Source: a virus. Taken from it: a DNA stretch of 34,860 bases. How positions within the stretch are numbered: the first letter of the stretch is position 1; the number at the start of each line of letters is the position of its first letter. Location: positions 1 through 34,860 of the IMG/VR virus record IMGVR_UViG_3300031918_000095. The stretch is one strand, 5' to 3'. Of this stretch, positions 17,415-32,903 are shown piece by piece. The position numbers and the translations under genes are program-made. The notes below the pieces were generated by a model that was not told where the DNA came from, ran no database searches, and saw only the letters and a program-made list of their open reading frames with translations.

Positions 17415-17433
17415 TTAGATGGCTATTTAATAA
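17415..17433. repeat. 19-bp direct repeat, copy 1
   Basis: TTAGATGGCTATTTAATAA, identical to 17855-17873. On the minus strand it spans the stop codon of the upstream gene and the start of the next intergenic leader. Either a duplication scar or a conserved translation/processing signal. Confidence 0.85.
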
Positions 17434-17848
17434 TTTTAACATTCTTACCGAGTTGTTTACAGACTTCGGAGAGAGTTAGTTCTTCAACCTTTTCATCTTC
17501 TTTAATTTCAAGTTTACCCTCTAAACAAATTGGCTCTTTACTTGGAGTTCTTTTTGCTTTGATAGATAGACATTTAATATTTTGATATACACAACAAAAT
17601 GCGTAATATAAGATGTCCCCAGCGTTGATGTTCCTAGCGGTGATGTCCCAAGCGGTGATGTTCCAAGCTTTGATGTCCAAAGCGGTGATGTTCAAAGCGT
17701 TGATGTTCCAAGCGTTGATGTTCCCAGCGGTGACTATAATACTTGCTGGTATGGAGATAGAACACTCAAATATTACATCTCCCTCTATTGCTAATACTCC
17801 ATTTTTAATGTCTTTAATAACGTCTTCATTTGTTTTATATATTTTCAT
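17423..17848 (-). CDS. Pentapeptide-type repeat protein
   Basis: 141 residues. A central block (about 40-80) repeats five-residue units of the form (N/D)-I-(N/T/K)-A-(W/L/R/G), eight in a row, giving a right-handed beta-helix-like rod with Ile/Ala inside. Known pentapeptide-repeat proteins mimic DNA and inhibit gyrase, but their consensus is A(D/N)LXX; here the register N-I-x-A-x is related but shifted. The C-terminal 45 residues are a mixed, charged domain. A regulatory or DNA-mimic role is speculative. Ends in TAG. Confidence 0.65.
   Translation of the reverse strand: MKIYKTNEDVIKDIKNGVLAIEGDVIFECSISIPASIIVTAGNINAWNINALNITALDIKAWNITAWDITARNINAGDILYYAFCCVYQNIKCLSIKAKRTPSKEPICLEGKLEIKEDEKVEELTLSEVCKQLGKNVKIIK
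17612..17731. repeat. Eight tandem 15-bp coding repeats
   Basis: Eight adjacent 15-bp units of the pattern GATGTYCMMAGCGKT on the plus strand. They encode the five-residue repeats of the pentapeptide protein on the minus strand. Units differ by one to four bases, which means the array is ageing rather than newly amplified. The repeat period equals five codons. Confidence 0.95.
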
Positions 17849-19714: not shown

Positions 19715-19874
19715 ATAATTATGTGTGTTTGTTATTTGTTTGTTAATGTTTCCAGCCTCGACCTATGCTGACGACTTGCAACTAGTTTCCAGTTCTTTAC
19801 GATAGTACCAGCGTGAGCCACCACTACGTCTTTCCTTTCTACTAATTACAATGCGTCAACAGATGTATACCTAC

Positions 19875-19902
19875 ATCATAGCAAAGGTATTGTTATAGTC
19901 AA
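19875..19902 (-). promoter_or_regulatory. Leftward promoter of the SSB/microprotein operon
   Basis: Minus strand: TTGACT (19897-19902), 16-bp spacer, TATGAT (19875-19880), with a TGC extension before the -10. The spacer contains CAATACCTTTGC, which recurs at the promoter 22732-22760. It gives an untranslated leader of about 150 nt before the ATG at 19714. That leader holds no gene I can support. Confidence 0.6.
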
Positions 19903-19924: not shown

Positions 19925-19954
19925 TTGACAAATAAGACTACTCTGTGCTATGAT
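19925..19954 (+). promoter_or_regulatory. Rightward promoter, consensus -35
   Basis: TTGACA (19925-19930), 18-bp spacer, extended -10 TGC-TATGAT (19949-19954). It is back-to-back with the leftward promoter 19875-19902. It points into the opposite strand of a leftward operon with only about 100 nt before a terminator. Confidence 0.6.
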
Positions 19955-19960
19955 ATAAAT

Positions 19961-20062
19961 ACATCCTTAATGGATTGTTACGCGTTTAGTTTTGTATCGT
20001 TAAAAACATAACCTTTAAAATTGCAATGAAGAAAAATAGATCTCGAAAGGGGTCTATTTTTT
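19961..20062 (+). ncRNA. Candidate ~100-nt RNA with own promoter and terminator
   Basis: Lies between the promoter 19925-19954 and the terminator 20033-20062. It contains a small hairpin near its 5' end (ATCC-TTAAT-GGAT) and only frames of 13 and 17 codons. Its 3' end is antisense to the last codons of the winged-helix gene. Could be a regulatory RNA, or a leader peptide gene. Confidence 0.45.
20033..20062. terminator. Bidirectional terminator with GAAA loop
   Basis: Arms 20033-20044 and 20049-20060 pair over 12 positions (two G-U) around a GAAA tetraloop. A-tracts and T-tracts flank both sides. It would end the leftward operon 23110-20054 and the short rightward RNA. Confidence 0.75.
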
Positions 20063-22731: not shown

Positions 22732-22760
22732 ATACTAGCAAAGGTATTGCTATGAGTCAA
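22732..22760 (-). promoter_or_regulatory. Leftward promoter sharing element with 19875
   Basis: Minus strand: TTGACT (22755-22760), 17-bp spacer containing CAATACCTTTGC, TAGTAT (22732-22737). The spacer and -35 match the promoter at 19875-19902 nearly base for base, suggesting co-regulation by one factor. Confidence 0.6.
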
Positions 22761-23207: not shown

Positions 23208-23289
23208 GGTAATTAACTTGTTTACTTATTTTATTAGGTATAGTATTATTTGAATGTAACTTAGTTACCACAAGAAACCCAAAAGATTC

Positions 23290-23350
23290 AAAACCTTTTC
23301 ACGGGTGCTTAATTAAGAAATTAGTTAAGCTCTTGTGAAAGGGTTTTTAT
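23290..23350 (+). terminator. Nested hairpin with T-run
   Basis: Arms 23290-23302 and 23335-23347 pair over 13 positions (one G-U). Inside is a second stem (GCTTAA at 23307-23312 with TTAAGC at 23325-23330). The right arm runs into TTTTTATTTT. It fits an intrinsic terminator or attenuator ending an RNA from 23179-23207. Confidence 0.6.
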
Positions 23351-23411
23351 TTTAATATGGTTGGCGGACCTATTTGCCATATTAATCTTACTTGATTAAA
23401 TTATAGGACTT

Positions 23412-23570
23412 TATAATGATGTGACTGGCAGAATCCAGCTACCCTAAGTTATAGAAGTGAATCTTGCGTTTTTAGTAAAATGTCTTGGCGCAAGAAACCC
23501 ACAGATAGCTCGTGCGAGCTTCCTCTGATAGTGAGACATAAGAATTAGAGAAGAGAAATTCTCACAAAAT
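23412..23570 (+). ncRNA. Candidate folded RNA in the control region
   Basis: Begins behind a perfect TATAAT (23412-23417). In order it holds: CUGG-CAGAAU-CCAG (23425-23438); a stem CUUGCG/CGCAAG (23463-23468 with 23489-23494, extended by one pair on each side); and a hairpin AGCUC-GUGC-GAGCU (23507-23520) flanked by CAGA/UCUG. GC content is clearly above the flanks. A 22-codon frame (23480-23548) lies within it and cannot be excluded as a leader peptide. No 3' terminator is obvious. I do not recognise a known RNA family. Confidence 0.4.
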
Positions 23571-23636
23571 AATTCACTAGAATAGACTATAATACTAAAT
23601 GGCTTTTAATTTCCTATACCTAAATTATAAATATAC

Positions 23637-23670: not shown

Positions 23671-24162
23671 ATGAACACACAACTAATTTGGTTAAATACT
23701 AAGAAAAAAGTTTCTGATATAATTCCTTATGAGAGGAATCCTAGGAAAATAACAGAAGCACAAATAGAATATCTTAAGAAGAGTTTATATAGATTTAATT
23801 TAGTAGATGTACCTATAATTGATTTTGATGGAGTCTTAATTTCTGGTCATCAGAGATGTAAGGCTCTTTCTTTATTGGGTAGAGACTTTGAGGAAATTGA
23901 TGTAAGAATACCAAATAGAAAACTAACTGAAAAAGAATTTAAAGATTTAAATCTAGAATTAAATAAATTGCGCGGAACTTTTGATTTTGATATTTTAGGA
24001 GCTGATTTTGAAATGGAAGAACTTAAGGATTTAGGATTTGATAATACAGAACTTGGATTAGGTTATCCAGAAGAAGAAAGTTTATCTTTAGATAATTTTG
24101 ATGACTCTAAAGAAAAGAAAGAACATACTTGCCCTTCTTGCGGAGAAAAATTCACTGATTAA
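23671..24162 (+). CDS. ParB/sulfiredoxin-domain protein with zinc tail
   Basis: 163 residues. The ParB-like nuclease/CTPase fold shows VSDIIPYERNPRKI (about 14-27), IEYLKKSLYRFNLVDVPIID (about 33-52) and the signature LISGHQRCKALSLLG (about 57-71). The C-terminus has a CPSCGEKF zinc knuckle. In phages this lone domain often accompanies DNA methyltransferases, but none is visible here. The tail end (CPSCGEKF) may bind a partner. Likely DNA-associated; the exact role is open. Confidence 0.75.
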   Translation: MNTQLIWLNTKKKVSDIIPYERNPRKITEAQIEYLKKSLYRFNLVDVPIIDFDGVLISGHQRCKALSLLGRDFEEIDVRIPNRKLTEKEFKDLNLELNKLRGTFDFDILGADFEMEELKDLGFDNTELGLGYPEEESLSLDNFDDSKEKKEHTCPSCGEKFTD

Positions 24163-25406: not shown

Positions 25407-26921
25407 ATGAGTAAGCAAGTAAATTTCAGCAGAGATGCTAAAGATAAAATCAAGGTAGGAATAGACATCGTAGTGAAGTCTATTCGCACAACCATCGGTC
25501 CTAAAGGGCGTAATGCTTTCATAGATGACCAGATGCAACCTAAGATAACCAACGATGGAAAGACCATCGCCAACTCAATAACATTAGAAGATAAGTTCGA
25601 GAATATGGGTGCGTGGCTTGTAAAGAACGCCGCAGGCCAAACAGACGATGAGGCAGGAGACGGAACTTCCACTACCTCTGTCCTTTTGAAAGCAATAATA
25701 GACGAAGCCCAGAAGAGACCAGAGAGTCCAATGGACATCAAACGCTCACTTATAAAATGGGGGGACAAGGTAAATGAATACATAAAAGACATGGCTAAGC
25801 CTGTAAAGGACAACCAGCTCGCAAATGTAGCAACTATCTCCGCAGAAGATGAGACCATAGGTAATTTGATAACAGACATTATAAACAAAGTAGGACGAAG
25901 AGTCCCTATCAATGTAGAGGACAACGTTCTCCCTCAGATAGAATACGAAATATCCCAGGGGCTAGAGACCAACGTAGGGTTCGCCCACCACGCATTTATA
26001 AATAATATAAGAAATGGAACAGCAGAACTGGAAAATGTTAGAGTGTTTGCAACAGACAGACGAATCTCTTCACTCCCAGACCTTATGGTCTTATTGCAAC
26101 TCCTGGAGACAAACAAGATCACAACCCTGGTAATCCTAGCAAGTGATATAGATAACGCAGTGCTTGGAACCCTAGTAAACTCAAAGTCAGCAGGAATGTT
26201 CAACTCACTAGTAATCCAAGCCCGTAATGCAGACCTAGAAGATATGGTAGCAATGTCTGGCGCAACTCTCGTATCAGAACTCACAGGTATAAAGCTATCA
26301 GAAGTAAAGCTAGAACACTTGGGTAAGGTAGAGAGAATCGTCTCAAGTAACAAAAAGACTTTAATCATAAACAACTCTCCAAAAGCTAAAGAGAAAGAAG
26401 AAACCCTCCGCGCAATGGTAGAGAACACAAAGAACATCTACGAGAAGAAGTTCCTAAACGACAGAGCAGATAAACTCGCAGGAGGAGTAGCAACCATCAA
26501 GGTAGGCGCTCACGTAGATACAGAACGAGAATACCAGAAGTATAAGATAGAAGACGCCATAAACGCCACAAAATCAGCCCTAGAAGAGGGAATTGTAGAG
26601 GGTGGAGGTATGTGTCTCTACCGCATAAGTAACAAGCTAAAGGGCAACTCAGCAGGAGAAGTGATCCTACGAAACGCGCTCAAAGAACCTCTACGAGCAA
26701 TCATAGAGAACTGTAACGAAGATTACACATCGATAGTAAAGAAACTCCCAAACAAGAAAGGCTACGATGCAAAGAACGACAAAGCAGTAGATATGATAAA
26801 GGCAGGTATTATAGACCCAGCAAGAGTAACAAGGTGTGCAGTAACAAACGCATTACAAAGTGCAGCTAATTACATTACCATGGAGGTTTGTATCACTGAT
26901 AAACAAGATGATAAAAAATAA
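25407..26921 (+). CDS. groL: Phage-encoded GroEL-type chaperonin
   Basis: 504 residues, shorter than bacterial GroEL (about 540). Equatorial motifs are present: TIGPKGRNAFID (29-40), ITNDGKT with Asp50, EDKFENMGAWLVKNA (61-75) and GDGTSTTSVLL (84-94, the ATP loop with Asp85). The hinge/ATPase Asp383 is in IEDAINATKSALEEGIVEGG, and DPARVTRCAVTNAL lies near the end. The apical domain (about 186-360) is diverged: APGFGDRRK, near-invariant in GroEL, is missing and the stretch is about six residues shorter (IQARNADLEDM), while GYLSPYF becomes GFAHHAF. There is no GGM tail; the end is DKQDDKK. An ATP-driven folding chamber for phage proteins, such as the capsid, is the likely role. Confidence 0.9.
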   Translation: MSKQVNFSRDAKDKIKVGIDIVVKSIRTTIGPKGRNAFIDDQMQPKITNDGKTIANSITLEDKFENMGAWLVKNAAGQTDDEAGDGTSTTSVLLKAIIDEAQKRPESPMDIKRSLIKWGDKVNEYIKDMAKPVKDNQLANVATISAEDETIGNLITDIINKVGRRVPINVEDNVLPQIEYEISQGLETNVGFAHHAFINNIRNGTAELENVRVFATDRRISSLPDLMVLLQLLETNKITTLVILASDIDNAVLGTLVNSKSAGMFNSLVIQARNADLEDMVAMSGATLVSELTGIKLSEVKLEHLGKVERIVSSNKKTLIINNSPKAKEKEETLRAMVENTKNIYEKKFLNDRADKLAGGVATIKVGAHVDTEREYQKYKIEDAINATKSALEEGIVEGGGMCLYRISNKLKGNSAGEVILRNALKEPLRAIIENCNEDYTSIVKKLPNKKGYDAKNDKAVDMIKAGIIDPARVTRCAVTNALQSAANYITMEVCITDKQDDKK

Positions 26922-26922
26922 T

Positions 26923-27144
26923 ATGGAAGATATAAATTTAATTGAAAAACTTACTAAAGAAATTGGCTCTAAGTATATGCTTAGAATAGAAAGATGGAAA
27001 GATGAGTATAAACATTGGAGAGCTGGGTTAGATTGGTATGGAGAAAATGATTATACTTTTATTTGTGAAAAACCTACATTAGAAGAATGTTTATTATTAA
27101 TTAAAGAATTTATAGATAAAGAATATGAAACCACTCGGAAATAA
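26923..27144 (+). CDS. Small acidic protein between GroEL and GroES
   Basis: 73 residues from the ATG at 26923, which sits one base after the GroEL stop (TAATATG). MEDINLIEKLTKEIGSKYML, then aromatic-rich WRAGLDWYGENDYTFICE and a helix. Its last 20 bases overlap the GroES-like start. It lies between the two chaperonin genes and is absent from bacterial groESL operons, so it is a candidate phage-specific cofactor. Family unknown. Confidence 0.6.
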   Translation: MEDINLIEKLTKEIGSKYMLRIERWKDEYKHWRAGLDWYGENDYTFICEKPTLEECLLLIKEFIDKEYETTRK

Positions 27145-27409
27145 GATAATGCTAGATATAAAAGAAGTTAAAATTGGCGCAATACAATCTGACGCAATAG
27201 AAGAACATGGAACTATAATTGCGATAGGAGGTAATGCTTTCGTTACACTAGTAAAAAATAACCCAGATATTACAGACGAAGAGAATACAAATGATTTAAT
27301 AGGTAAAACTCTATACTTCAAAGCCTGGGCAGTAGACGTTATAACTAAAGGTCAAGACAAATACTACTTTATAAGTTCAGATAGTGACGCGATATGCGCC
27401 ATCGAATAA
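27125..27409 (+). CDS. groS: GroES-type co-chaperonin
   Basis: 94 residues. The GroES pattern is clear: MKPLGNKIMLDIKEV (cf. IRPLHDRVIVKRKEV), HGTIIAIGGNAF (cf. RGEVLAVGNGR), DLIGKTLYFKAWAVDVITK (cf. VGDIVIFNDGYGVKS) and FISSDSDAICAIE (cf. LIMSESDILAIVE). The mobile loop that docks on GroEL is shortened and lacks the usual GGIVL; the segment reads KIGAIQSDAIEE. An insert of about 14 residues (LVKNNPDITDEE) occupies the roof-loop area. T4 gp31 is a precedent for a phage GroES, but here the partner GroEL is encoded too. Confidence 0.8.
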   Translation: MKPLGNKIMLDIKEVKIGAIQSDAIEEHGTIIAIGGNAFVTLVKNNPDITDEENTNDLIGKTLYFKAWAVDVITKGQDKYYFISSDSDAICAIE

Positions 27410-27822: not shown

Positions 27823-27854
27823 TATAATAAAGTTGTGACACTTATATCACATTA

Positions 27855-27886
27855 AAAAGGCCTCAACTTTCGTTGGGGCTTTTTTA
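27855..27886. terminator. Bidirectional intrinsic terminator
   Basis: GCCTCAAC (27860-27867), TTTC loop, GTTGGGGC (27872-27879), one T-G pair, followed by TTTTTT and preceded by AAAAAG. It ends the chaperonin operon on the plus strand and the HNH gene on the minus strand. Confidence 0.85.
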
Positions 27887-28171
27887 ATTCTTCTCGTAGT
27901 ATTTGTCTAACCACTCGAATATGAACCGTTCTCCAGTTTCACCATCTTGGGTGTGCCAAAAATAGTTTACTAGATACTCAATACATTCAACAGGATCTTT
28001 ATTGTCAAAGACGTGGTGGAAATGTTGGTGTTTGTCAATATCCAAGATTGCGATATTTTCAATGGTACTTCTACCTCCCCGTGAGGAAGGTACAACGTGA
28101 TGCCGATTAGTGTGGTCGTTCTTCGGTTTAGGCTTTGGCAAGGGCTTCATAAAGACCTTTAATCTTTTCAT
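27884..28171 (-). CDS. HNH-type protein, 95 aa
   Basis: Basic start MKRLKVFMKPLPKPKPKN, then the HNH-like core NRHHVVPSSRGGRSTIENIA (about 22-41) and IDKHQHFHHVF (about 45-55), with a helical end. It lacks Cys pairs, so it is a compact HNH without the usual zinc ribbon. Its start overlaps the previous stop (ATGA). HNH proteins beside terminase genes help cut DNA at packaging in some phages; this may be one, or a mobile element. Confidence 0.7.
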   Translation of the reverse strand: MKRLKVFMKPLPKPKPKNDHTNRHHVVPSSRGGRSTIENIAILDIDKHQHFHHVFDNKDPVECIEYLVNYFWHTQDGETGERFIFEWLDKYYEKN

Positions 28172-28389
28172 TTTTTCACTTCATTAAACATATCAAGGAA
28201 ATCAATTGATGTAGGATACCTCAAGTCAAAGAGGCGTTCATTAGAGCTAGAAACAGTGTAAATGCGTTCCACTGAATCTGTTTTAGGAGCATAGAGAAGT
28301 CTTTTGTTTTCTCTACCAAGAATTGTAAGTTCTGCGAAGTGACTGAGTCTTTGCCAGCCAACATTCAAAAGTCTTTCTTCTGTTGTCAT
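28168..28389 (-). CDS. Hypothetical protein, 73 aa
   Basis: MTTEERLLNVGWQRLSHFAE then beta strands (NKRLLYAPKTD, ERIYTVSSSNER) and a helix (SIDFLDMFNEVKK). Its TGA stop overlaps the HNH start (ATGA), implying coupled expression. No family recognised. Confidence 0.6.
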   Translation of the reverse strand: MTTEERLLNVGWQRLSHFAELTILGRENKRLLYAPKTDSVERIYTVSSSNERLFDLRYPTSIDFLDMFNEVKK

Positions 28390-28429
28390 TGTATTAAGTT
28401 TTAAAGTGCCTTTAATATAATTGTAGACC

Positions 28430-28457
28430 TTGCATAGAAAAATACAAGTAGTATAAT
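28430..28457 (+). promoter_or_regulatory. Promoter of first intergenic RNA
   Basis: TTGCAT (28430-28435), 16-bp spacer, TATAAT (28452-28457). No gene starts within its transcript before the terminator at 28560-28624. Confidence 0.6.
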
Positions 28458-28463
28458 TAATAT

Positions 28464-28624
28464 GTTAACTTGGTAAAACGAAATGGTATAAACCTGCGTT
28501 GAGACAAGCCAATATCAAACAGGAGTACACAGACGTCCACACTCAGCTAATAGTTCACTAAAAATACTCGGGGCATAGAAACATATTTCTTTTATATTAA
28601 TCTATTTGCCTTGAGTATTTTTTT
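28464..28624 (+). ncRNA. Candidate ncRNA 1 upstream of terminase
   Basis: About 160 nt between a promoter and a terminator, with no frame longer than a few codons. Visible pairing: CCUG 28493-28496 with CAGG 28520-28523, and GUUGAG 28498-28503 with CUCAGC 28542-28547. These two cross each other, which would make a pseudoknot. A GAGU/ACUC pair lies near 28522-28544. The family is unknown. Its position beside packaging genes and its size recall the packaging RNA of phi29, but no sequence match to that RNA is claimed. Confidence 0.5.
28560..28624 (+). terminator. Terminator of ncRNA 1
   Basis: AAAAATACTC (28560-28569) pairs with GAGTATTTTT (28613-28622). An inner stem GGCA+TAGA / TCTA+TGCC has a two-base bulge. 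The T-run reaches 28624. Confidence 0.7.
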
Positions 28625-28628
28625 ATAT

Positions 28629-28656
28629 TTGACAAGCAATACAGAAGGAATACAAT
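28629..28656 (+). promoter_or_regulatory. Promoter of second intergenic RNA
   Basis: TTGACA (28629-28634), 16-bp spacer, TACAAT (28651-28656). It starts right after the previous terminator. Confidence 0.6.
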
Positions 28657-28662
28657 TATAGT

Positions 28663-28835
28663 AATAGCTGGGTTATGGTAGGCACTTCGGCACAATAGTT
28701 CTTGTTTACACTCAATTAAATAAAGCACAAAAATTATATTTTGGAACAAACAATGCAATGAGAAAACCTTATTACTTATTAAATATTGATTAACCTCCCT
28801 ACCAAGAAAAACTCCATCGATATGGGGTTTTTCTT
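28663..28835 (+). ncRNA. Candidate ncRNA 2 upstream of terminase
   Basis: About 170 nt between the promoter 28629-28656 and the terminator 28807-28832. UGGUAGG (28676-28682) near the 5' end is perfectly complementary to CCUACCA (28798-28804) just before the terminator, so the RNA ends may be clamped together. Only very short frames are present. No known family recognised. The two units together fill the 490-base gap between the leftward pair and the terminase genes. Confidence 0.5.
28807..28832 (+). terminator. Terminator before the terminase genes
   Basis: AAAAACTCCAT (28807-28817), CGAT loop, ATGGGGTTTTT (28822-28832): 11 pairs with one T-G, then TTC-TTTT. It ends ncRNA 2. Confidence 0.75.
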
Positions 28836-28842
28836 TTATTAC

Positions 28843-28872
28843 TTGTCAAAAGAATAAACTATGGTGTATACT
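28843..28872 (+). promoter_or_regulatory. Late promoter of the packaging genes
   Basis: TTGTCA (28843-28848), 18-bp spacer, TATACT (28867-28872). The ATG at 28879 lies at the expected transcription start, so the small-terminase message is predicted to be leaderless. Confidence 0.6.
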
Positions 28873-28878
28873 TATTAA

Positions 28879-29253
28879 ATGACAACAACTAATCCTGAAA
28901 ATACAGGAAGAAAGCAGGATGGAACATTTGCTCCAGGAGTAAGTGGAAACCCTGCAGGTAAACCAAAGGGAGCAAGACATCTCACTACTTTATTATTTGA
29001 AGCACTACAAAAGAAGATCCCAGGAAGAGATGAAACTTATCAAGACAAGTTAGTGGAAAGAATACTTACCGAAGCTATTGTTAAGGGTAAGGGAGATATG
29101 ATAAAACTCGCAATGAATTACATTGATGGAATGCCACAGCAAGGAATAGACATCACAACAAACGATGAACCTATCAATGGTCTTAATGATATAAACGTGC
29201 TTGAGATAGCTCGTCGAGTCTCAGCCGAATTGAAAGCTAAAAAAACAAAGTAA
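28879..29253 (+). CDS. Small terminase subunit-like protein
   Basis: 124 residues. The N-terminus has the DUF5681 motif GTFAPGVSGNPAGKPKGARH (about 20-39), followed by a helical core (LTTLLFEALQKKIPG, YQDKLVERILTEAIVKG). DUF5681 proteins usually sit just upstream of the large terminase and act as small-subunit DNA-recognition factors. That is the position here. The start is fixed by the leaderless promoter. Confidence 0.7.
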   Translation: MTTTNPENTGRKQDGTFAPGVSGNPAGKPKGARHLTTLLFEALQKKIPGRDETYQDKLVERILTEAIVKGKGDMIKLAMNYIDGMPQQGIDITTNDEPINGLNDINVLEIARRVSAELKAKKTK

Positions 29254-29254
29254 T

Positions 29255-29389
29255 ATGAATAAAGCAAAAATGGTATGTGTTTCTAAAATGTCTATGTTAA
29301 AAGAGCATAAGAAACTTATCCCAATGTTAGAGAAGGTAAATCCTAAAGAGGCTAAAGCCCAAACTAAGGAGATGAAGAAATATAAATAA
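29255..29389 (+). CDS. 44-residue basic peptide
   Basis: MNKAKMVCVSKMSMLKEHKK then KLIPMLEKVNPKEAKAQTKE: Lys/Met-rich and helical. The TAATATG junction links it to the small terminase, and its stop overlaps the large-terminase start by one base (TAATG). Too short for most callers. It may be a packaging accessory. Confidence 0.55.
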   Translation: MNKAKMVCVSKMSMLKEHKKLIPMLEKVNPKEAKAQTKEMKKYK

Positions 29390-30981
29390 TGGACGAGAAA
29401 CTAAAAGAAATGCTAGGTCTAGTGGATATCCATATCTTCCTAGAGACTAACAACATAAAGAACGAACAGGGAGAAAAGCTAGACTTCCACAATCACGCCT
29501 TCTTATGGGACATTTTCGCAGACCAAGCTCCACACCAAGCTATAATGAAAGCCGCGCAGATAGGATTTACTACCACAGCAATACTTAAAAGCCTATGGTT
29601 AGCATACACAAAGAAGATGGATATGATTTACACCATGCCAACCTTCTCAGACGTGCAGACCCTGGTTACATCAAAGGTGGACCGCATAATAGAACAGAAC
29701 CCAATACTCCAGGAATGGGTAGAAAAGAAAGATACCATACAGCAGAAGCGTGTGGGTAATTCTGTTATATACTACCGTGGAACGTGGAGTGAACGTGAAG
29801 CCCTATCAACATCCTCAGACTTAAACGTCCACGATGAGGTGGACCGCTCTAACCTTAAGGTGGTGGACCAATACTATTCACGTCTCCAACACTCAAAGTA
29901 TGGCTGGCAGTGGCTATTTAGTAACCCAAGTGTTCCAGAGGTAGGAGTTCATAAACTATGGTCCAGGAGTGACCAGAAGCATTGGTTCGTAAAATGCCCG
30001 CAATGTAATAAAAAGCAATACATGGTAATGGAGAACATTATGAAGAAAGAAGGAAGTGAGGACTATTACTATGGTTGTAACAACTGTAAGACAGAACTAA
30101 ATAGAAACGATGGAGAGTGGATCGCCCGCTGGAAGGACAGAACATATAACAAAGATACAAATCCAAATGGAGTAAATGGCTACTGGATTTCATTATTGAT
30201 GGCTCCGTGGGTGTCCGCTAACACAGTCAAACACTTAGAGAAAACAAAGCCCGCTGACTTCTTTGCTAACTTCGTACTAGGGATACCTTACACTGGCTCA
30301 GGTAACACGGTCCAGAAGGATATGATTATGCGTAACCTTACTGACGCAATAAACGAACAAAAAGGACGCATTGTTATTGGAGTAGACCCAGGAAGTGATA
30401 TCAGATATGTGATAGGTAACCGAGACGGGATATTCTATTACGGAGACTGTAAGGGTTATGGAGAACTCGAGGCTCTTATGAAGCGCTGGCCTAAAGCAAT
30501 TATGGTAATCGACTCAGGAGGAGACTTGATAGCAAGCCGTGAGTTACGATCAAGATACAAAAACCGCATATTCCTAGCTTACTACCGCTTAGACAGAAAG
30601 AGCGAAGAGTTATTCTCATGGAACGATGATGAGGGTTCAGTAACAGTTGACCGCAACAGAGGCATTCAGCTATTGATAGATGAGTTCACAGACAGAAGAA
30701 TACCAATCTATGGGACCGAAACTGACTGGTATGATTACTGGGTTCATTGGTCCCACATCTATCGAATAAGTGAAGAGGACCAACTAGGTAAACTTCGCCA
30801 CAAGTGGATGAGAAGTGATCGTGACGATTTCGTCCACGCAACACTTTACTGGAGAGCAGGAATGGATAGGTTTATGGATGGAGAAGGAGCAATCATTAAC
30901 ATACAAGAAAGTATAGGAGAAACGGGTTACACTACCACTGCCGATGGAAAAAACTTGTTTCGTCCACAAAGAATATACTAA
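29389..30981 (+). CDS. terL: Large terminase subunit (GpA-type)
   Basis: 530 residues. ATPase: Walker-A-like AAQIGFTT (55-62, the relaxed form of this family) and Walker B LNVHDE (145-150). A zinc ribbon follows: CPQC (203-206) with CNNC (230-233), typical of lambda GpA-type enzymes. The C-terminal RNase H-like nuclease has GVDPGSD (Asp333), VIDSGGD (Asp375) and DRDDFVHA (Asp480). It cuts and translocates DNA into the procapsid through the portal encoded downstream. The preceding microprotein overlaps its ATG by one base. Confidence 0.9.
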   Translation: MDEKLKEMLGLVDIHIFLETNNIKNEQGEKLDFHNHAFLWDIFADQAPHQAIMKAAQIGFTTTAILKSLWLAYTKKMDMIYTMPTFSDVQTLVTSKVDRIIEQNPILQEWVEKKDTIQQKRVGNSVIYYRGTWSEREALSTSSDLNVHDEVDRSNLKVVDQYYSRLQHSKYGWQWLFSNPSVPEVGVHKLWSRSDQKHWFVKCPQCNKKQYMVMENIMKKEGSEDYYYGCNNCKTELNRNDGEWIARWKDRTYNKDTNPNGVNGYWISLLMAPWVSANTVKHLEKTKPADFFANFVLGIPYTGSGNTVQKDMIMRNLTDAINEQKGRIVIGVDPGSDIRYVIGNRDGIFYYGDCKGYGELEALMKRWPKAIMVIDSGGDLIASRELRSRYKNRIFLAYYRLDRKSEELFSWNDDEGSVTVDRNRGIQLLIDEFTDRRIPIYGTETDWYDYWVHWSHIYRISEEDQLGKLRHKWMRSDRDDFVHATLYWRAGMDRFMDGEGAIINIQESIGETGYTTTADGKNLFRPQRIY

Positions 30982-31046: not shown

Positions 31047-32903
31047 ATGGGAATAATAAATAATCGTAACGCGTTCAATTCAGTTAGAGGAGTCCAGCAA
31101 CTCTTTGGCCCTTTAAATAAAGGAAAAAAATCACTTGATGAAGATGAGGGTGAAGAACAGTTGCAGCCAGAGTTTGAATCAACAATGACCGAAGAAGAAA
31201 TCATTGCGCTAACTGCGCAGTGGATTTCCGAAGATGCAACTTATCAGAAAGACATCAAGACACAACAAAAAGACAATGTCAATTATTGGTTAGGAAAGCA
31301 TTACAATGACCTACAAACATCAGGGACAAAGCGTCCACTGACTGATAATCTTATCTTTGAAGCAGTTGAAACGTTCCTACCTATTGCTACCCGCGCAACC
31401 CCAGAAGCTAACGTGTCTACTACTATGGGACAGCAAGACAAGCTAACGAAAGCACTACAACCAATACTTAACTATCAAGGAGAAAGAACCTTAATGAGAA
31501 TGAAGTTGAAGGGCGCAACCCGCGACTGGGTCCTTAATCTTTTAGGTTGTATTAAGATTGTCTGGGATACTACAAAACAAGACTATGATATTAAGAAAGT
31601 CAGCGCAACCCGTTTGATATTTGATAAGAATGCTGAAATAGATGTAGACGGAACTTATTATGGAGAGTTCCTCGGAGAAAGAAAGCGCGCATCTGCTCGT
31701 AAGCTCTCACGAATGTTCCCAAAGAAAGAATCTTACATCAGAACTATGTGTCAGGGAAACTTTGGAACCAACCTCAATTACATTGAATGGAATACAAACT
31801 ACGACCTATTCTTTACTTTAGAACATCAAGTCCTCGGAAAGTTCAAGAACCCACACTGGAACTATGACGGAGAAGTAGAGAGAGAAGATCCAAACACAAA
31901 AGCAAAGAAGAAGGAATTTGTTAAGGGAAAAAACCATTTTGATAGACCAATGATACCTTATGTCTTCCTTTCAATCTTTAATCTAGGAAAGCGTCCACAC
32001 GATGAGACTTCCCTAGTCTTCCAGAACATCCCACTACAAGACACTATCAACAAGAGATACCAGCAAATAGACCGCAACGTTGAGGCCCAGAACAATGGTA
32101 TTGTTTTATCAGGTAAATACTTTACAAAAGAACAGGCCGCAGAAGCTGCTACCCAGCTTGCTCGTGGTAACCCACTATGGGTCCCAGAAGGAGACATCAG
32201 CCAGGCATACAAGAGAGATAACGCCCCACAGCTACCAGGAGATGTCTTTAATCACTTGAGAGACGCCCGCAATGAGCTCCGTAACATCTTTGGAACTTCA
32301 GGTTCAAGCCCAGAAGGAACCAAGAGCCAGGAGAGTGTTCGTGGAAAGATACTCATAAATCAATTAGACAGTTCTCGTATTGGTGGAGGGATTACAGAAT
32401 ATATAGAGCTTATGGCTGGAAACCTTTACAACTGGTTCGTCCAGATGATGTATGTTTATTACACAGATGAAAAGACATTCCCAATAGGCTTGGACCGCAA
32501 CAAGGATACAATGGTCGCGATAATCAACACAGACTTCACTCAACCAGTTCACGTAACAGTCAAGTCGGGTTCCCTAGTACCAAAGGATCCACTAACACAG
32601 AGAAACGAGGCTATGGACCTATGGAGCGCGCAAGGAATAGACCCTATCTCATTCTACGAGAAATTAGACTTCCCTAACCCTTATGAATCCGCAAAAGACT
32701 TATTGACATGGACTATGATAAAAGAAGGAGCATTACAACCACAAGCTATGTTCCCAGACTTTGGAGGACCACAGACCGCAGTTCAAGGAGTAGGTAACAG
32801 TGGAGTAGTAAGCGCAGAAGAAAGTAATCAAGCAAGAAACAATACTCCAGCTGAGGCTGTCGGAGCCACATCAGCACAATTATTAGGTAGCGTAAAATTA
32901 TAA
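31047..32903 (+). CDS. Portal protein
   Basis: 618 residues, the usual size for podovirus portals. An acidic N-terminal arm (DEDEGEEQLQPEFE) leads to helices starting EEEIIALTAQWISE. The wing contains beta strands (DYDIKKVSATRLIFDKNAEI). A long helical stem follows (PLQDTINKRYQQIDRNVEAQ, about 325-345), then a Gln/Ala-rich C-terminus. It forms the dodecameric ring where DNA enters the head. It follows the large terminase and has its own promoter. Confidence 0.8.
   Translation: MGIINNRNAFNSVRGVQQLFGPLNKGKKSLDEDEGEEQLQPEFESTMTEEEIIALTAQWISEDATYQKDIKTQQKDNVNYWLGKHYNDLQTSGTKRPLTDNLIFEAVETFLPIATRATPEANVSTTMGQQDKLTKALQPILNYQGERTLMRMKLKGATRDWVLNLLGCIKIVWDTTKQDYDIKKVSATRLIFDKNAEIDVDGTYYGEFLGERKRASARKLSRMFPKKESYIRTMCQGNFGTNLNYIEWNTNYDLFFTLEHQVLGKFKNPHWNYDGEVEREDPNTKAKKKEFVKGKNHFDRPMIPYVFLSIFNLGKRPHDETSLVFQNIPLQDTINKRYQQIDRNVEAQNNGIVLSGKYFTKEQAAEAATQLARGNPLWVPEGDISQAYKRDNAPQLPGDVFNHLRDARNELRNIFGTSGSSPEGTKSQESVRGKILINQLDSSRIGGGITEYIELMAGNLYNWFVQMMYVYYTDEKTFPIGLDRNKDTMVAIINTDFTQPVHVTVKSGSLVPKDPLTQRNEAMDLWSAQGIDPISFYEKLDFPNPYESAKDLLTWTMIKEGALQPQAMFPDFGGPQTAVQGVGNSGVVSAEESNQARNNTPAEAVGATSAQLLGSVKL

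Follow-up and report, generated by a model that had tools for sequence, protein, structure and literature searches.

In lambda, the short 6S RNA, which is made from pR' and limited by the terminator tR', belongs to a late antitermination system that operates with Q. Lambdoid phages also carry morons, additional DNA segments that come with promoters and terminators of their own and are classically protein genes. Phage Xp10 switches on its late genes with the help of P7, which assists RNA polymerase in bypassing the intrinsic terminators that precede them (PMC6624301). Phage regulatory small RNAs (sRNAs) include the lambda OOP and aQ RNAs as well as cyanophage CfrI, which adjoins a homing-endonuclease gene (PMC12197685). 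Finally, the packaging RNA (pRNA), with a length of 174 nt, is reported to occur only in phi29-type phages, where it goes together with a terminase whose nuclease domain is vestigial (PMC11476376). We compared these systems with a non-coding gap that directly precedes the terminase genes of a tailed phage.

The DNA analyzed, referred to here as the window, is an IMG/VR record of 34,860 bases. Its gene content includes a large terminase subunit (TerL) of the GpA type, a DUF5681 protein as the small terminase subunit (TerS), a P22-like portal, and a phage GroEL. The genome is longer than the window, about 38 kb, since a near-identical contig (L003/L008) runs beyond the right end of the window without reaching its start. 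One relative, L010 (record G004; 38,660 bases), is largely collinear with the window. The phage probably infects Patescibacteria, because the TerL relatives retrieved by an alignment scan of GTDB include loci titled Parcubacteria, Jorgensenbacteria, and Nealsonbacteria, and because a 1.0-Mb uncultured bin (L098) has the same gene order, namely, GroEL, GroES, orf72, TerS, and TerL. The phage GroEL and a GroES-like gene, the latter assigned by position, occupy 25407-27409, and their order beside orf72-TerS-TerL is kept in many relatives. Shine-Dalgarno-like sequences are almost absent window-wide (6 of 55 genes), and several genes, for example those at 23671 and 28879, have a -10-like box positioned for a leaderless mRNA.

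The gap spans 489 nt (28390-28878) and is bounded by ORF73 on the minus strand and TerS on the plus strand. It is non-coding on the plus strand: each frame contains 9-13 stops, and the codon-usage scores are negative. Two mini-ORFs, MLTW (28462) and MVGTSAQ (about 28676), are too short for judgement. The simplest reading of the order of elements is P1-RNA1-T1-P2-RNA2-T2-P3-TerS. The features of the region, in which transcription and the exact ends of the RNAs are predicted, are as follows.

27852..27887, plus strand: T0, terminator after orf72, probably bidirectional; 16-bp stem TTAAAAAGGCCTCAAC/GTTGGGGCTTTTTTAA, loop TTTC, T-rich on both sides
27884..28171, minus strand: HNH endonuclease-like gene, small (95 aa), matching PF01844 at E=2.5e-4, slightly above the curated cut-off
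28168..28389, minus strand: ORF73, small protein in one operon with the HNH gene; fold model of low confidence (pLDDT 51)
28430..28457, plus strand: P1, putative RNA1 promoter, TTGCAT-16-TATAAT, read from the sequence, with a score at chance level
28464..28626, plus strand: RNA1, predicted non-coding transcript of about 160 nt, no reading frame
28560..28622, plus strand: T1, intrinsic terminator of RNA1; 16-nt arms, 88% complementary, followed by T7; local fold of -22.5 kcal/mol
28629..28656, plus strand: P2, RNA2 promoter, TTGACA-16-TACAAT, near-perfect by consensus score (11/12)
28663..28838, plus strand: RNA2, predicted non-coding transcript of about 175 nt, no reading frame
28804..28835, plus strand: T2, intrinsic terminator of RNA2; 14-bp stem, loop CGAT, T-rich tail; local fold of -15.8 kcal/mol
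28843..28872, plus strand: P3, predicted TerS promoter, TTGTCA-18-TATACT, 10/12 by consensus score
28879..29253, plus strand: TerS, assigned by position, homology to the L010 gene, and DUF5681 (PF18932, E=1.3e-9)
29389..30981, plus strand: TerL, GpA type, 530 aa (phrog_675, E=9e-96; PF05876, E=1.4e-19)

An earlier, sequence-only reading had described two tandem promoter-RNA-terminator units devoid of reading frames. This description held strongly for RNA2 and more weakly for RNA1, the promoter of which scores at chance level; the predicted RNA lengths and the location before TerS and TerL also agreed with that reading. ORF73 had no match in PHROGs, Pfam, PDB, or IMG/VR, and no IMG/VR relative of the HNH gene was found. 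ORF73 has the same length as P7 and was considered as a P7-like antiterminator; this candidate was rejected, as there was no PDB sequence match and the fold model was too poor for comparison.

The terminators are the best-defined elements of the gap. A hairpin of -15 kcal/mol or better was present in 2% of 300 dinucleotide shuffles of the gap, and none of the 300 contained two. T1 and T2 are thus plus-strand intrinsic terminators far beyond chance expectation. T0 is probably the left boundary of the insert described below and the end of the upstream operon. Since T0 ends that operon and ORF73 and the HNH gene run in the opposite direction, T1 and T2 require plus-strand transcripts that begin within the gap.

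P2 is a near-consensus promoter and among the best in the window. Its class (11/12) is enriched in this genome, with 7 sites in the window as compared with 0-4 in 20 shuffles, and such a site was present in 3.3% of the gap shuffles. P1 combines a perfect TATAAT with a -35 element that matches in only 3/6 positions, and 9/12 sites occur at chance rate in this DNA; it is well placed and is predicted to be a weak promoter of RNA1. It overlaps a possible divergent minus-strand promoter for ORF73 (TTGTAT-16-TACAAT). The predicted start site of P3 is the A of the ATG at 28879, and the terminase is predicted to be expressed from P3 as a leaderless message; in L010, TATTAT is found 6 nt before the probable TerS ATG. 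A motif at the three promoters, ACAAGYARTA, was considered as a common operator. It has 3 sites in the window, all of them within the gap, versus 0.53 expected. This candidate was dropped because the motif had been chosen after seeing the sequence and because, in a calibrated test, four 10-mer sites occurred in 18% of shuffles and the 13-nt inverted pair in 17%.

The analysis of RNA folding revealed that the excess folding energy of both RNAs sits entirely in the terminators. Full-length RNA1 folded better than its shuffles (z=-3.35), whereas its body without the terminator did not (z=-0.12), and the corresponding value for the RNA2 body was z=+1.16. The structures proposed earlier did not withstand comparison with shuffled sequences: the best pair of crossing helices, taken as a pseudoknot in RNA1, was equalled or surpassed by 45% of shuffles, and the clamp said to join the ends of RNA2 (AGTAATAG/TTATTACT, 8 pairs as scored) was reached by 13%. 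The Rfam search suggested at the time returned no match at the gathering score, and the gap gave none naming pRNA even at E<=10. No sequence related to RNA1 or RNA2 was found among described RNA families. The two RNAs were related neither to each other nor to other intergenic RNAs of the phage and are not copies. Pairing of their bodies with the 55 phage translation starts was not above chance, being equalled by 83% and 50% of shuffles, respectively. A type III toxin-antitoxin RNA, in which tandem repeats precede a terminator and a toxin gene, was also considered and rejected, since the gap contains no tandem-type repeat family and RNA1 and RNA2 are unrelated.

The sole other copy of this DNA was found in a near-identical contig (L002), which extends over part of RNA2 and shows 100% identity in that part. 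BLASTN searches with the gap in the records of 26 relatives returned nothing else apart from weak matches under 42 nt. There was no match in the phage collection or in 7 GTDB genomes from the TerL scan, nor in 287 genomes of the phylum of the Jorgensenbacteria match (Patescibacteria-type), a search that had no positive control. Scans of IMG/VR with exact 14-16-mers retrieved the near-identical contig and chance matches in unrelated or coding DNA. In the two closest relatives, L010 and L011, neither the HNH gene nor ORF73, RNA1, or RNA2 is present between orf72 and TerS. L010 (TerL 78% identical, TerS 43% identical) has 107 nt between orf72 and a long TerS frame, and in L011 (TerL 68% identical) TerS follows orf72 with essentially no spacer. 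Given these two spacings, HNH-ORF73-RNA1-RNA2 is most simply seen as a block of about 950 bp that was inserted in this phage lineage, a view that rests on two relatives. Downstream of orf72 in L010, the sequence TTGCTT-17-TATAAT is separated by about 120 nt from a strong terminator (1028-1059), after which comes the TATTAT before TerS. This stretch resembles a single promoter-RNA-terminator unit, although its terminator may correspond to T0 and mark the end of the upstream operon. Non-coding and possibly structured stretches were also noticed directly before TerL in L043 (4887-5124) and L010 (1505-1917), with GAGGAG/CTCCTC pairings.

We tentatively propose, with a probability of roughly 0.45, that the gap contains two independent sRNA genes within a lineage-specific, moron-like insert, that these RNAs regulate by base pairing, and that the terminase is expressed separately from P3. 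The plus-strand half of the insert would comprise the two sRNA genes and the minus-strand half ORF73 and the small HNH gene. The insert would bring its own promoters and be enclosed by T0 on the left and T2 on the right, so that it would neither read into the late operon nor be read into. A host RNA polymerase of the sigma-70 type would transcribe P1-RNA1-T1 and P2-RNA2-T2 and release RNAs of the predicted lengths, each with a body that is mostly single-stranded and a strong terminator hairpin at the 3' end. Because this shape is that of ordinary base-pairing bacterial sRNAs, pairing with phage or host messages is their most likely activity; bodies no more structured than shuffled sequences fit such sRNAs and not a structured RNA machine.

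Of the features that define a phage sRNA gene, namely, its own promoter, an intrinsic terminator, and the lack of a reading frame, all are clearly present in RNA2, and in RNA1 with a weak promoter. Like OOP, aQ, and CfrI (PMC12197685), RNA1 and RNA2 are short intergenic non-coding transcripts, here predicted, with their own promoters, and like CfrI they lie close to an endonuclease gene, in that case a homing-endonuclease gene. The known RNAs are expressed, several with known targets, whereas RNA1 and RNA2 are putative transcripts that resemble accessory RNAs of a kind ordinary for phages. Promoter-RNA-terminator units recur in this genome, as further ones are located at 19925-20062 and 23221-23346. 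Like the morons of lambdoid phages, the insert is additional DNA that has promoters and terminators of its own and separates genes which in relatives lie next to each other or almost so, and it is missing from the otherwise syntenic L010 and L011. It differs in that half of it is non-coding and that the insertion is supported by only two close relatives; the likeness to morons is confined to layout. If transcribed, RNA1 and RNA2 would provide sRNA candidates from a phage that probably infects Patescibacteria, a very large group of which little has been cultured, and would show that moron-like inserts are able to carry RNA genes.

A different possibility is that the gap is a late-gene antitermination leader, in which short transcripts from P1 and P2 stop at T1 and T2 early in infection until a phage protein acting on RNA polymerase allows readthrough into the terminase-portal-capsid operon. 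As in lambda and Xp10, terminator-limited short transcripts would lie upstream of the late genes and collinear with them, and P7 (PMC6624301) provides a precedent. The main support comes from the possible promoter, the approximately 120 nt, and the strong terminator just before TerS in L010, but this terminator may merely end the upstream operon of L010, and the GroEL-bearing relatives other than L009 and L010 have no strong terminator in this position. The locus also departs from both models in having two tandem units that are not conserved in relatives, and none of the proteins scanned against PHROGs and Pfam was recognized as a Q-like antiterminator. Furthermore, TerS would have a direct promoter in the predicted P3, located beyond both terminators, which would make a late-control role unnecessary for terminase expression. 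We regard a leader of this kind as unlikely. Insulation alone, with T1 and T2 placed back-to-back to block stray transcription from the ORF73/HNH side and the RNAs as functionless by-products, appears similarly improbable. It would agree with unstructured RNA bodies that have no detectable phage targets and with the lack of conservation beyond this lineage. However, a pure insulator needs no promoter, and P2 is one of the best in the window; in addition, the left side is already insulated by T0, and the neighboring genes are transcribed away from the gap. Far less likely still is a stronger version of the sRNA proposal, according to which RNA1 and RNA2 form a new trans-acting pair at the packaging/late switch that arrived with ORF73 and the HNH gene and is needed for terminase timing.

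Two further explanations link the gap to DNA packaging. Its position directly before TerS, a TerL of the GpA type as in lambda, and the fact that contig L002 happens to end within the gap at 28683 would suit a cos- or pac-type recognition site of the terminase, with the AT-rich promoter-like patches being incidental. Such a site has a low probability, as the iterated and inverted motifs of the gap are not significant in the shuffles described above, assemblies span the gap, and two U-tailed terminators would be left unexplained. The sequence-only reading had instead drawn an analogy to the packaging RNA of phi29-type phages, offering a role in packaging or late control as a testable idea; on the packaging view, one of the RNAs would be a structural part of the packaging motor. 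RNA1 and RNA2 share with pRNA (PMC11476376) the length class and a position close to the terminase genes, but this analogy, tempting as it was, is unsupported, largely refuted, and now removed. In addition to the lack of an Rfam match, the bodies fold no better than shuffles, with the proposed helices at chance level, and thus do not show the stable conserved fold of pRNA with its three-way junction and intermolecular loops. The phage has TerS and a full-length TerL of the GpA type in a genome of about 38 kb, in contrast to the gp16-type ATPase with its vestigial nuclease in a small protein-primed genome, and relatives with the same terminase do not have the RNAs.

Several other elements were noticed in the window. 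The unit at 23221-23346 (plus strand) consists of TTTACT-17-TATTAT followed by a terminator hairpin of 21 bp (23294-23343; z=-5.65). Next to it, a GC-richer and apparently structured non-coding stretch (23400-23580, plus strand) precedes a ParB-like gene and looks more RNA-like than RNA1 and RNA2. In the same place, G004 (L113/L114) has a foldable non-coding stretch (31440-31665; z=-2.5) with a 12/12 promoter upstream (31357-31384); neither stretch had a match in Rfam. The unit at 19925-20062 (plus strand) has the promoter TTGACA-18-TATGAT and a terminator at 20031-20062, and its predicted RNA of about 105 nt is antisense to a minus-strand operon. On the minus strand, a foldable leader of 150 nt (19715-19870; z=-2.7) precedes an SSB-like gene and shows weak similarity (69% over 52 nt) to the region upstream of the same gene in G004. 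Exact and one-mismatch copies of the palindrome TAGCAAAGGTATTGCTA, a possible repressor operator, are located at 22736-22752 and 19879-19895, at two promoter-like sites of the minus strand. Eight 15-nt repeats (17597-17748, minus strand) lie within the gene at 17423-17848, which encodes a pentapeptide-repeat-like protein (NITAWDITAWN...).
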